DNA of 6,078 nucleotides from Lentimicrobium sp. (GTDB taxonomy: Bacteria; Bacteroidota; Bacteroidia; Bacteroidales; Lentimicrobiaceae), in assembly GCA_013336205.1 (NCBI GenBank), contig JAAXUD010000189.1, positions 1 to 6,078 of the forward strand, written 5' to 3'. Each line of letters starts with the position of its first letter. Positions within the stretch are counted from its first letter, which is position 1. Position numbers and translations under genes: made by a program. This document shows positions 2,922 to 6,078 of the stretch, piece after piece. The notes below the pieces were generated by a model. It had not been told where the DNA came from, did no database searches, and saw nothing but the letters and a program-made list of their open reading frames with translations.

Positions 2922-4313
2922 ATGAAAAACAAATACAGCGATCTGATCGAACAGACATTCGATTTTCCTCAGGACGAATTCAGAGTTGAGGATAATGAAC
3001 TCTATTTTCATAATATTCCTTTAATGGATGTTATTAAGCAATATGGAACACCATTAAAAATCAGTTATTTGCCCAAGATAAGCCAACAGATCCAAAAGGC
3101 TAAAAAGATGTTTAATGTTGCCATCGCTAAAGCAGACTATAAAGCTGATTACCACTATTGCTATTGTACCAAGAGCTCACACTTCTCTTTTGTTTTGGAG
3201 GAAGTTCTTAAAAATGATGTAAACCTTGAAACATCTTCTGCATTTGATATCTTCATTCTCGAATCTTTGCGTGAGCAGGGTCTCATCAATCAGGAAAACT
3301 ACATTATTTGTAATGGCTTTAAGCGACCCCAGTACATAGAGAATATCAGCAATCTTATAAATGAAGGCTTTGAGAATACAATTCCAATCCTTGACAACAA
3401 GTTTGAGATAGACCAGCTGGATAAAAACATTACACGAAAATGTAAGATTGGAATCCGGATTGCTTCAGAAGAAGAGCCTAAATTTGAATTTTACACTTCC
3501 AGGCTTGGGATTCGTTACAATGATATAATCCCCTATTACGAAGAAAAGATTAAAAATAATCCGAAGTTTCAGCTAAAAATGCTGCACTTCTTCATTAATA
3601 CCGGAATAAAAGACTCCGCGTATTATTGGAACGAACTTTCAAAATGTGTGAATATGTATTGCCAGTTGAAGCAGATTTGCCCTGAACTGGATTCCTTGAA
3701 TATCGGGGGTGGATTCCCTATTAAGAATTCACTTTCGTTTGATTACGATTATGAATATATGGCTGAGGAGATTATTGCGCAGATTAAAATGATCTGTGAC
3801 CGCAACAATACTCCGGAACCTGATATTTTTACTGAATTTGGTTCTTATACTGTGGGTGAAAGCGGAGCAACACTTTACTCCATCATCGATCAGAAACAGC
3901 AAAACGACAGGGAGCTTTGGGATATGATCGACTCGTCATTTATGACAACCCTGCCCGATACCTGGGCACTGAATCAGCGGTTTATTTTACTGGGTATCAA
4001 TAAGTGGGACTCAGAATATGAACGGGTTTTCCTTGGTGGATTAACCTGCGACAGTGAGGACTATTACAATGCGGAGGCTCACTCCAATGCAATTTTCCTT
4101 CCAAAAATAGACAACGATGAACCGCTTTATATTGGTCTTTTCCACACCGGGGCGTATCAGGAATCTATTGGCGGGTATGGTGGTATACAGCACTGCCTGA
4201 TTCCGGCACCCAAGCACATTATTATAGATGTTGATGAGGAGGGAGAATATACTACCAAACTGTTTGCCAAGGAACAGTCGCACAAATCAATGCTTAGGAT
4301 ACTCGGCTATTGA
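2922..4313 (+). CDS. speA: PLP-dependent decarboxylase, probable arginine decarboxylase (short Bacteroidota form)
   Basis: This is a cytoplasmic pyridoxal-phosphate enzyme of the alanine-racemase-fold (ornithine/diaminopimelate/arginine) decarboxylase group, most likely making agmatine from arginine as the first step of polyamine synthesis. Active-site residues all appear intact: Lys84 in YCTKSSH for the PLP Schiff base, His222 in LHFF for ring stacking, Gly262-264 in IGGGFP and Glu305 in TEFGS for phosphate and pyridine nitrogen, Cys376-Asp377-Ser378 in LTCDSED from the partner subunit of the dimer, and Tyr412 in HTGAYQ. At 463 residues it is much shorter than the roughly 650-residue E. coli biosynthetic SpeA, but matches the form usually annotated as arginine decarboxylase in Bacteroidota. 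The ATG is secure: an in-frame TGA lies at 2907-2909 with no start codon between. A ureohydrolase gene follows after 111 bp on the same strand. Substrate is inferred from family and context; ornithine, lysine or a carboxylated polyamine is possible. Confidence 0.88.
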   Translation: MKNKYSDLIEQTFDFPQDEFRVEDNELYFHNIPLMDVIKQYGTPLKISYLPKISQQIQKAKKMFNVAIAKADYKADYHYCYCTKSSHFSFVLEEVLKNDVNLETSSAFDIFILESLREQGLINQENYIICNGFKRPQYIENISNLINEGFENTIPILDNKFEIDQLDKNITRKCKIGIRIASEEEPKFEFYTSRLGIRYNDIIPYYEEKIKNNPKFQLKMLHFFINTGIKDSAYYWNELSKCVNMYCQLKQICPELDSLNIGGGFPIKNSLSFDYDYEYMAEEIIAQIKMICDRNNTPEPDIFTEFGSYTVGESGATLYSIIDQKQQNDRELWDMIDSSFMTTLPDTWALNQRFILLGINKWDSEYERVFLGGLTCDSEDYYNAEAHSNAIFLPKIDNDEPLYIGLFHTGAYQESIGGYGGIQHCLIPAPKHIIIDVDEEGEYTTKLFAKEQSHKSMLRILGY

Positions 4314-4424: not shown

Positions 4425-5297
4425 ATGAAAATAAAGCAATTTGGTAATATTTCCGAGCAATTTTCGAATTTTGAAAATGCAAAAGTAGTCATCCTTCCGG
4501 TCCCCTTTGAGGCTGGAAATAATTGGATTAAGGGAGCTGACAAAGGCCCTGAAGCCTTGATTGAAGCATCTGCATCAATGCATCTTTATGATATCCAATC
4601 TGACTTTGAGGTTTTCAGGACAGGTATTCATACGGCAGAGGCTATTAAAGAGGGTAAATCGCACGAGAAGATGGTTAAGGAGGTTGAGGCCAGAACCACG
4701 CAATTATTGAAAAAAAGGAAGTTCCCTGTTATAATCGGAGGAGAACATTCAACCGGTATCGGTTCCATGAAAGCGTGTGCTGATTATTACAAGGATAAGG
4801 ATTTCTGCGTGCTTCAGTTAGGAGCACATGCCAACCAGCGCCAAACCTATAATGGATCGGCTTATCATCATAGTTGTGTAATGGCAAGGGCTTCGGAAGT
4901 GGCACCGGTGCTGCAGGTCGGTATCAGAAGCATGAGTAGTGAAGAAAGAGATAATATTAAGCCTGACCGGATGTTTTATGCCCACAATATCCTGGATAGC
5001 AGCAATAAAACCTGGATGTATGATTTTTTAAATAAACTTAACAAACACGTTTATATCTCAATCGATCTGGATGTATTTGAACCCTCAATCATGCCTGCAA
5101 CTGCTAACCCTGAGCCTGGCGGGCTGGGCTGGTACCAGGTGCTTGATGTTTTACACACCGTAAGTCAAAAATCAACTATTGTTGGTTTTGATGTAACCGG
5201 GTTATGCCCGATAAAATATAACAAAGCGCCAAATCTTTTGGCTGCCAGACTGGTTTATCAGGTCTTGAATTTCAGGTTTTCAGGCCTGATTAAATAG
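4425..5297 (+). CDS. Agmatinase/arginase-family ureohydrolase with a degenerate metal site
   Basis: The 290-residue length and overall sequence fit the agmatinase family, whose dinuclear-manganese enzymes hydrolyse agmatine to putrescine and urea. Family features kept: PVPFEAGNNWIKGADKGPEA near the N-terminus, GGEHS with metal ligand His108, His149 in the HHSC segment, Asp214 and Asp216 in SIDLD, and PEPGG at 229-233. The second metal motif DAHxD reads G133-A-H135-A-N137, so both aspartates, including one that bridges the two metals, are lost. The usual Glu of the VGFDxxE segment is Gly259, and the GTGT before PEPGG is altered to ATAN. The frame is intact, so this is not an obvious pseudogene. 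The ATG is supported by an in-frame TAA at 4410-4412 with no start codon between; there is no Shine-Dalgarno. The gene follows the decarboxylase by 111 bp and may be co-transcribed. Family assignment is firm. Ordinary agmatinase activity is doubtful: a pseudoenzyme, a partner subunit or an enzyme with a changed reaction are all possible. Confidence 0.85.
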   Translation: MKIKQFGNISEQFSNFENAKVVILPVPFEAGNNWIKGADKGPEALIEASASMHLYDIQSDFEVFRTGIHTAEAIKEGKSHEKMVKEVEARTTQLLKKRKFPVIIGGEHSTGIGSMKACADYYKDKDFCVLQLGAHANQRQTYNGSAYHHSCVMARASEVAPVLQVGIRSMSSEERDNIKPDRMFYAHNILDSSNKTWMYDFLNKLNKHVYISIDLDVFEPSIMPATANPEPGGLGWYQVLDVLHTVSQKSTIVGFDVTGLCPIKYNKAPNLLAARLVYQVLNFRFSGLIK

Positions 5298-5320: not shown

Positions 5321-5356
5321 ATTAAAAAAGCATCAGATAGCTGATGCTTTTTTAAT
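5321..5356. terminator. Bidirectional intrinsic terminator between convergent genes
   Basis: ATTAAAAAAGCATCAG (5321-5336) and CTGATGCTTTTTTAAT (5341-5356) are perfect reverse complements around the loop ATAG. The stem has a GCATCAG/CTGATGC core flanked by six A and six T, so either strand gives a hairpin followed by a U run. It lies 23 bases past the ureohydrolase stop and can serve both that gene and the convergent minus-strand gene. Confidence 0.85.
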
Positions 5357-5497: not shown

Positions 5498-6078
5498 CTA
5501 CCATCCAAGCAGCCAGGCGAAAATCAGCGGTGCAACAATAGTGGCATCACTTTCAATGATATATTTTGGGGTATCAATGTCTAGTTTTCCCCAGGTAATT
5601 TTTTCGTTAGGCACAGCTCCTGAATAAGATCCATAGGAGGTGGTTGAATCACTGATCTGGCAGAAGTAAGACCAGAAAGGAACATCGTGCCACTCGAGAT
5701 CCTGATACATCATAGGAACTACACAGATGGGGAAATCACCTGCAATGCCCCCGCCAATCTGGAAGAACCCAACACCTTTACCCGATGAATTTTTGCGATA
5801 CCATTCTGAAAGCCAGACCATATACTCAATACCGGTTTTCATGGTTGATGGGGAAAGCTCGCCTTTTATACAATAGGAGGCGAAAATGTTACCCATGGTG
5901 CTGTCTTCCCAGCCAGGAACAATAATTGGCAGGTTTTTTTCGGCGGCAGCCAGCATCCAGGAATGTTTGGGATCAATTTCATAGTCCTTTTCCATTACCC
6001 TGCTCAAAAGCAGTTTATACATATATTCATGTGGGAAATATCGCTCTCCGGCGGACTGGGCATCTTTCCAAATCTTTT
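5498..6078 (-). CDS. Deoxyhypusine-synthase-family protein, probable homospermidine-forming enzyme (N-terminal part outside window)
   Basis: The minus-strand frame ends at TAG (5500-5498) and stays open to the right edge. Translation upstream of the ATG at 6022 (WKDAQSAGERYFPHEYMYK) continues the family sequence, so that ATG is internal; about 193 C-terminal residues are visible of roughly 320 expected. Family motifs seen, numbered from the 6022 ATG: PGWEDSTMGN at 36-45, GFFQIGGGIAGD at 85-96 (NAD-binding region), SDSTTSYGSYSGA at 124-136, and TWGK with Lys146 (5587-5585), the equivalent of the lysine that forms the enzyme-imine intermediate in eukaryotic deoxyhypusine synthase. The eukaryotic enzyme uses NAD to transfer an aminobutyl group from spermidine to eIF5A. 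Bacteria have no eIF5A, so the likely acceptor is a small amine such as putrescine, giving homospermidine; this is inference. The gene converges on the decarboxylase/ureohydrolase pair, which supports a polyamine role. Cytoplasmic, as no hydrophobic segment suggests otherwise. Confidence 0.88.
   Translation of the reverse strand, partial: KIWKDAQSAGERYFPHEYMYKLLLSRVMEKDYEIDPKHSWMLAAAEKNLPIIVPGWEDSTMGNIFASYCIKGELSPSTMKTGIEYMVWLSEWYRKNSSGKGVGFFQIGGGIAGDFPICVVPMMYQDLEWHDVPFWSYFCQISDSTTSYGSYSGAVPNEKITWGKLDIDTPKYIIESDATIVAPLIFAWLLGW

Follow-up and report, generated by a model that had tools for sequence, protein, structure and literature searches.

We report here that a decarboxylase-linked gene of the agmatinase family, found in a 6,078-nucleotide stretch of Lentimicrobium DNA (the window), encodes a pseudo-agmatinase which has kept the ureohydrolase fold but lacks two metal-binding Asp residues and the active-site Glu, and which is under strong purifying selection. 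As the best explanation, still a tentative one, this protein may be a non-catalytic subunit that pairs with an unlinked intact ureohydrolase, named Agm2 in this work, and Agm2 would now carry out the hydrolysis. A non-catalytic subunit is also the simplest role for which the protein could have been kept.

The pseudo-agmatinase and its replaced residues

The gene and the residues of its active site are as follows, with intact and deficient sequences counted among the aligned homologues described below.

4425..5297, + strand: pseudo-agmatinase, agmatinase-family (PF00491), 290 codons, ATG to TAG
4746-4748, + strand: His108 (CAT), ligand of the first motif, kept; His in 36 of 41 deficient sequences
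4821-4823, + strand: Gly133 (GGA), replaces Asp; Gly in 18 of 41 deficient sequences
4827-4829, + strand: His135 (CAT), ligand kept; His in 41 of 41 deficient sequences
4833-4835, + strand: Asn137 (AAC), replaces Asp; Asp lost in 37 of 41 deficient sequences
4869-4871, + strand: His149 (CAT), kept; His in 35 of 41 deficient and 157 of 157 intact sequences
5064..5072, + strand: Asp214 (GAT, 5064-5066) and Asp216 (GAT, 5070-5072), ligands kept; each in 39 of 41 deficient sequences
5199-5201, + strand: Gly259 (GGG), replaces the active-site Glu; Glu lost in 41 of 41 deficient sequences (40 Gly, 1 Asn)

An earlier note on this DNA had given codons and coordinates for the three replaced residues, and a direct reading of the DNA agrees with them. 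Its inventory of motifs also holds, except that the first motif is GGEH and not GGDH; GGEH is also found in most of the listed homologues. The proposal that the fold is kept despite the missing ligands is borne out by the 290 open codons and by a predicted model with a pLDDT of 92.7. We assume that the Asp expected at position 133 is the metal-bridging Asp of arginase and that the Glu expected at position 259 is equivalent to its guanidinium-binding Glu, and His149 presumably corresponds to the catalytic His141. In arginase numbering, we take the lost residues to be D124, D128 and E277.

Compared with the agmatinase SpeB (TIGR01230) and other PF00491 ureohydrolases (3pzl, 7lol), the window protein has the fold and the family profile but differs in the active site. 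Among the six metal ligands (the His of GG[DE]H, DxHxD and DxD), Gly133 and Asn137 stand in place of Asp, and in the GFDxxE segment the active-site Glu is Gly259. With two metal-site Asp and the Glu missing, at most the second metal site remains, and judged from these residues catalysis at the decarboxylase-linked locus is likely gone. The NCBIfam equivalog TIGR01230 accepts the protein as an agmatinase (188 against a cut-off of 174.3), and a pathway call based on this model would credit it with a reaction likely beyond its ability, which makes the model a possible source of wrong calls.

The deficient pattern among homologues

A homologue search found 5659 proteins, and of the best 120, which were listed, 31 deviate from the intact pattern, including the 12 closest. 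All of these 12 listed proteins (79-93% identical) have G133 and G259, and position 137 is N in 11 of them and S in P0003, while P0012 additionally carries N214. The earlier idea that the G/H/N/G pattern marks a conserved clade is therefore upheld with small variations, and the opposite outcome, in which all close homologues would be intact, did not occur. When the listed best homologues and the fetched loci were aligned as 198 distinct sequences, 157 had the intact pattern H/D/H/D/D/D/E and 41 deviated, the latter being the deficient sequences, all 289-303 aa long. Their losses are unevenly distributed, with Glu259 lost in 41, Asp137 in 37, Asp133 in 18, His108 in 5, Asp214 in 2, Asp216 in 2 and His135 in none. 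In P0060 and P0065 the Glu alone is lost and all six ligands are present. Among 80 named loci retained out of 550 relatives, 70 are intact and 10 deviate, and all 10 deviants lie within the genus of the window.

The loss of the Glu equivalent in every deficient sequence bears on the proposal that the protein binds agmatine or a polyamine as a sensor, without hydrolysis. The retained fold and a part of the conserved positions would suit such a sensor, but without the guanidinium-binding residue agmatine itself is an unlikely ligand, and we consider this role, which the earlier note had put forward, to be very improbable.

Parallel loss within the genus

To describe the distribution of the gene, 19 genomes of the genus were used, mostly drafts of 72-98% completeness, in which the genome of the window (G000) is 89.75% complete. 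The agmatinase gene is present in 18 of the 19, and the decarboxylase gene adjoins it in all 18. Fourteen of these genomes are deficient and four (G006, G014, G016, G018) are intact. In G004, two deficient copies, each with a decarboxylase gene beside it, were seen on two short contigs, and a strain mixture is possible. In G003 (89% complete), neither an agmatinase of the decarboxylase-linked kind nor an Agm2 match was found; its sole decarboxylase match is weak (E 4.7e-4), and the synthase-like gene described below is kept.

Deficiency apparently arose several times in parallel, as read from sequence trees. In the larger agmatinase tree, the intact P0013 is sister to the clade of the window together with P0015 and P0041 (support 92/86), the intact P0016 pairs with P0018 (99/94), the intact G006, G014 and G018 cluster with P0047, P0060 and P0065 (93/93), and the intact G016 group is sister to a large second clade (90/82). 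If changes are presumed to be losses and not regains, the minimum is 4 on this larger, best tree, and 3 are forced by the well-supported branches alone; an earlier, smaller tree gave 3. A single origin of the deficient forms was rejected (p-AU 2.99e-6) in a test in which 23 deficient rows were held together against 21 intact rows, using 44 chosen rows with 14 trait columns removed. The rpoB species tree covered 17 of the 19 genomes, with no sequence from G008 or G016 and partial ones from G000 and G015, and the ADC trees did not settle the deep order within the genus. As intact and deficient orthologues share one locus, with P0060 and P0065 as apparent intermediates, direct tests can be made of which residues were lost first, of any dependence on a second enzyme and of the job that was retained.

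Selection on the deficient gene

The deficient gene appears to be maintained for a role other than ordinary agmatinase catalysis, as had been suggested from the open frame. In four close deficient pairs, the NG86 dN/dS values were 0.031, 0.043, 0.080 and 0.094, far from the value near 1 named beforehand as the contrary outcome; in most distant pairs, dS was saturated or could not be defined. G000 and G011 share the base at 22 of 89 four-fold third positions, which is chance, and their proteins are 81% identical; in nine further pairs the third-base agreement was 0.25-0.43 against a chance level of 0.25-0.28. In the clade of the window (four genomes), Gly133, Asn137 and Gly259 are kept with differing codons (GGA/GGT/GGG, AAC/AAT and GGG/GGT/GGA, respectively). 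Conserved in this way while synonymous sites are close to saturation, the replacement residues are themselves constrained.

These data leave little room for a gene that was inactivated recently and is decaying, or for an error of sequencing, both of which we find hardly credible and reject. The agmatinase does evolve faster than its neighbours, as such decay would predict. However, the pattern is common to 12 separate database clusters, the length is held in all 41 deficient sequences, dN/dS is low, and the replaced residues persist despite the synonymous divergence. The constraint may still be looser than on the intact enzyme: the ratio of AGM dN to ADC dN was 3.0-6.1 in 4 of 9 deficient pairs with both genes and 3.8-5.0 in four intact pairs, but it was about 9 or more, or undefined (ADC dN about 0), in the other 5 of 9 deficient pairs. 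This comparison covered the 18 ADC genes except the three of G010, G012 and G015.

In the 157 intact sequences, 65 positions are conserved at 97% or more; clade A (16 sequences) retains 50 of them at 90% or more, and clade B (19 sequences) retains 41. Most of A or B has lost 18 positions, and many of these (111, 133, 137, 139, 212, 226-228, 256, 259) belong to the ligand motifs or flank them, as judged by sequence position. Four changes (Y28F, D29E, S225A and E259G) are common to both clades, and Phe28 and Ala225 are present in some intact genes too. The changes near ligand motifs fixed in the two clades could be read as a remodelled pocket of a one-metal enzyme, working at the second site (His135, Asp214 and Asp216) on a substrate without a guanidino group. 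Such an enzyme would also be consistent with the high retention of these three ligands and of His149, and with P0060 and P0065, in which the ligands outlast the Glu. On the other hand, the ligand losses vary by lineage (His108 is replaced by Gln or Thr in 5 of 41), unlike what one new active site would give, and the bridging Asp is absent from the clade of the window. We therefore regard a one-metal enzyme as unlikely.

Agm2, a second ureohydrolase

In 13 of the 14 deficient genomes of the genus, a protein of about 350 aa with a PF00491 match, Agm2, was found with all six ligands and the Glu present. The 13 Agm2 proteins are 64-97% identical to each other. PF00491 searches found Agm2 in none of the four intact genomes of the genus, two of which are only 78-79% complete. 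The association of Agm2 with deficiency gave a Fisher p of 0.0016, with kinship ignored. The gene is unlinked, lying on another contig in the genomes that have it or, in G001, about 0.87 Mb away. A search of the window's own genome did not find Agm2, but the assembly is broken close to where the gene would be expected: in G009 about 750 bp lie between Agm2 and its usual neighbour gene, and in G000 the two best matches to this neighbour are on short contigs which end 2 and 263 bases past the match. Because these contigs end before the place where Agm2 is expected, its absence from the window's genome is unproven.

Intact agmatinase and a 48-50% identical relative of Agm2 occur together in G014 and, outside the genus, in G024 and G025, which are 2 of the 14 relatives searched; the other 12 have agmatinase alone. 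Compared with the 13 Agm2 proteins, the relative in G014 is 45-49% identical. Thus, the second enzyme alone does not cause the loss. The neighbours of Agm2 are shared by both deficient clades, so Agm2 is probably ancestral and few independent events are involved. Its substrate is not assured, as its score of 151.9 bits falls short of the agmatinase cut-off (174.3). The Agm2 search covered the genomes of the genus and the 14 relatives outside it, and not those behind P0013, P0018, P0041, P0047, P0060 and P0065.

From these observations, the following course of events can be proposed. An ancestor would have carried both the decarboxylase-linked agmatinase and Agm2, and Agm2 would have supplied catalysis. 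The decarboxylase-linked protein would then have lost guanidinium recognition (Glu259) first and metal ligands afterwards, independently in several lineages, and a structural role would have preserved its sequence throughout. In this course, the takeover by Agm2 would make the loss tolerable, and selection would be the reason why the protein stayed. Takeover alone would also explain the co-occurrence with Agm2, and it is from this co-occurrence that we infer the step to binding. A stronger version, which we hold with less confidence, is that parallel conversion to a pseudoenzyme, probably beginning with guanidinium recognition, has produced an obligate non-catalytic half of a split agmatinase, with Agm2 as the catalytic half. 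If true, this would be a repeatable natural experiment in the change from enzyme to scaffold.

The adjacent decarboxylase and comparison with known systems

The earlier note had proposed a non-catalytic partner of the neighbouring decarboxylase or of the deoxyhypusine-synthase relative. The partner idea fits best among its role proposals, but we rank the unlinked intact Agm2 above the two partners named. The decarboxylase lies immediately upstream.

2922..4313, + strand: pyridoxal-phosphate decarboxylase, SpeA-like (PF02784), 463 aa; separate ORF, 111 bp upstream of the pseudo-agmatinase

This protein is related to the arginine decarboxylase SpeA (PRK05354, 171 bits, under the cut-off of 369), its best solved relative is the arginine decarboxylase 3n2o, and a full-length match is present in 18 of the 19 genomes of the genus. 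A somewhat less probable alternative is that hydrolysis passed to Agm2 and that the dead agmatinase is kept because it stabilises or regulates the adjacent decarboxylase as its partner, as may happen in a Fusobacterium fusion described below. The two genes adjoin in all 18 genomes in which the agmatinase was found, G003 has neither, and a pre-existing binding role would explain the parallel loss without gene loss. However, intact genes outside the genus are adjacent as well, so adjacency is no mark of the dead state, and there is no sign of co-variation (across the genus, the decarboxylase is 92-96% and the agmatinase 53-84% identical to its counterpart in the window). A published case bears on both sides. 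In passages of PMC8503589, a Fusobacterium ornithine decarboxylase fusion is described in whose ureohydrolase domain Ser and Asn take the place of two metal Asp, and activity of this domain is considered unlikely; on the other side, the isolated decarboxylase domain is about as active as the fusion. The window protein resembles this fusion (8d27), as presented there, in its decarboxylase link and in the replacement of two metal aspartates, but it is a separate ORF beside a SpeA-like PF02784 decarboxylase, unlike the AAT-fold fusion. We slightly prefer Agm2 as the partner, since in the genus Agm2 occurs only with a deficient gene (13 of 13) and since a deficient gene without Agm2 was seen only in the broken assembly of the window.

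For the preferred pairing with Agm2, the closest parallel is a metal-free ureohydrolase subunit, MetCb, which MetCa needs (passages of PMC11271267). The window protein would have given up hydrolysis, which Agm2 would have taken over, and the two would bind each other in a mixed oligomer like that of MetCaCb. In the sections of that paper used here, three to five of the six ligands are missing in MetCb-clade proteins, and metCa and metCb are adjacent. As with MetCb/MfmB (8ryi, 8snf, 8x3g), the ureohydrolase fold is retained and the metal site is incomplete. An intact paralogue is present in 13 of the 14 deficient genomes and was not found in G000, whose assembly breaks off near the place where it would lie. 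In contrast to MetCb as described there, the window protein has 2 of 6 ligands changed, no intact catalytic paralogue lies at its locus, Agm2 being unlinked, and its role is presumed to be in polyamine metabolism. No earlier report of a metal-deficient agmatinase in Lentimicrobium was found in the open-licence papers searched.

We know of no decarboxylase linkage or repeated loss for the arginase-like protein of Trypanosoma brucei. This protein, eukaryotic and without the manganese cluster, is mentioned in parts of PMC8503589 and PMC11271267, and it shares with the window protein the character of a metal-site-deficient ureohydrolase. A passage of PMC11271267 calls it mostly elusive what ureohydrolases that lack a metal cluster do.

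Other candidate catalysts

N-carbamoylputrescine amidase was above the curated cut-off in none of the 19 genomes of the genus, and 16 had weaker matches. PF04371 matches are present in 18 of the 19, and most of the frames that hold them are about 550 or 800 aa long; two frames that were scanned (284 aa in G005 and 552 aa in G010) gave 56 and 55 bits against the agmatine deiminase cut-off of 381.8, and a divergent agmatine deiminase may be among the others. Carboxynorspermidine decarboxylase (nspC) was found in 0 of 19 genomes, with a model that passed its cut-off in only 1 of 14 control genomes. A third PF00491 protein was set aside as a catalyst, as in the window's genome it is by eye without the usual ligand motifs. 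This protein of 391 aa (L032:1130-2302, G000:C822) has degenerate-looking GGGQ, VVDPMFDL and SFDIGAI motifs, and is possibly another pseudo-ureohydrolase. Frames of 370-409 aa with a PF00491 match are seen repeatedly in the genus, whether the genome is intact or deficient, and one more match comes from a 351-aa frame of G003.

Neighbouring genes and the intergenic hairpin

Downstream of the pseudo-agmatinase, two further features are located.

5323..5354, no strand: terminator-like hairpin GCATCAG-ATAG-CTGATGC with flanking A and T runs, seen by eye between the convergent genes and not flagged by the scan
5498..6078, - strand: deoxyhypusine/homospermidine-synthase-like gene, convergent (PF01916, 73.8 bits), cut by the window end, WGK motif kept

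The scan for promoters and terminators near the agmatinase gene gave sites no more frequent than in shuffles. We take the lysine of the WGK motif to be the assigned lysine of the synthase-like gene. Relatives with a full match share about 90-96% identity with the 192 residues that the window holds of this gene, far above the agmatinase. In an NCBIfam scan of the full-length gene of G009, the deoxyhypusine synthase, homospermidine and agmatine-coupling models were all below cut-off. The lysine assignment in a synthase-like protein is given in a passage of PMC10981699, and the Thermus caldomycin route presented there is only a lead to the product of this gene. The gene is interrupted in G018 (L105; 2 TGA in one match) and was matched in pieces only in G005 (L005), in each case by a real change or an assembly error.

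In six genomes (G001, G007, G008, G010, G012 and G013), the pseudo-agmatinase and the synthase-like gene are about 8.5 kb apart, and the insert of G001 (L104:2947-11482) contains ORFs which by eye resemble a SusC/SusD pair. At the other end of the window, a MacB/FtsX-type permease is split into two overlapping ORFs in different frames (2-1729 and 1720-2283, + strand) by a frameshift, either real or an assembly error.
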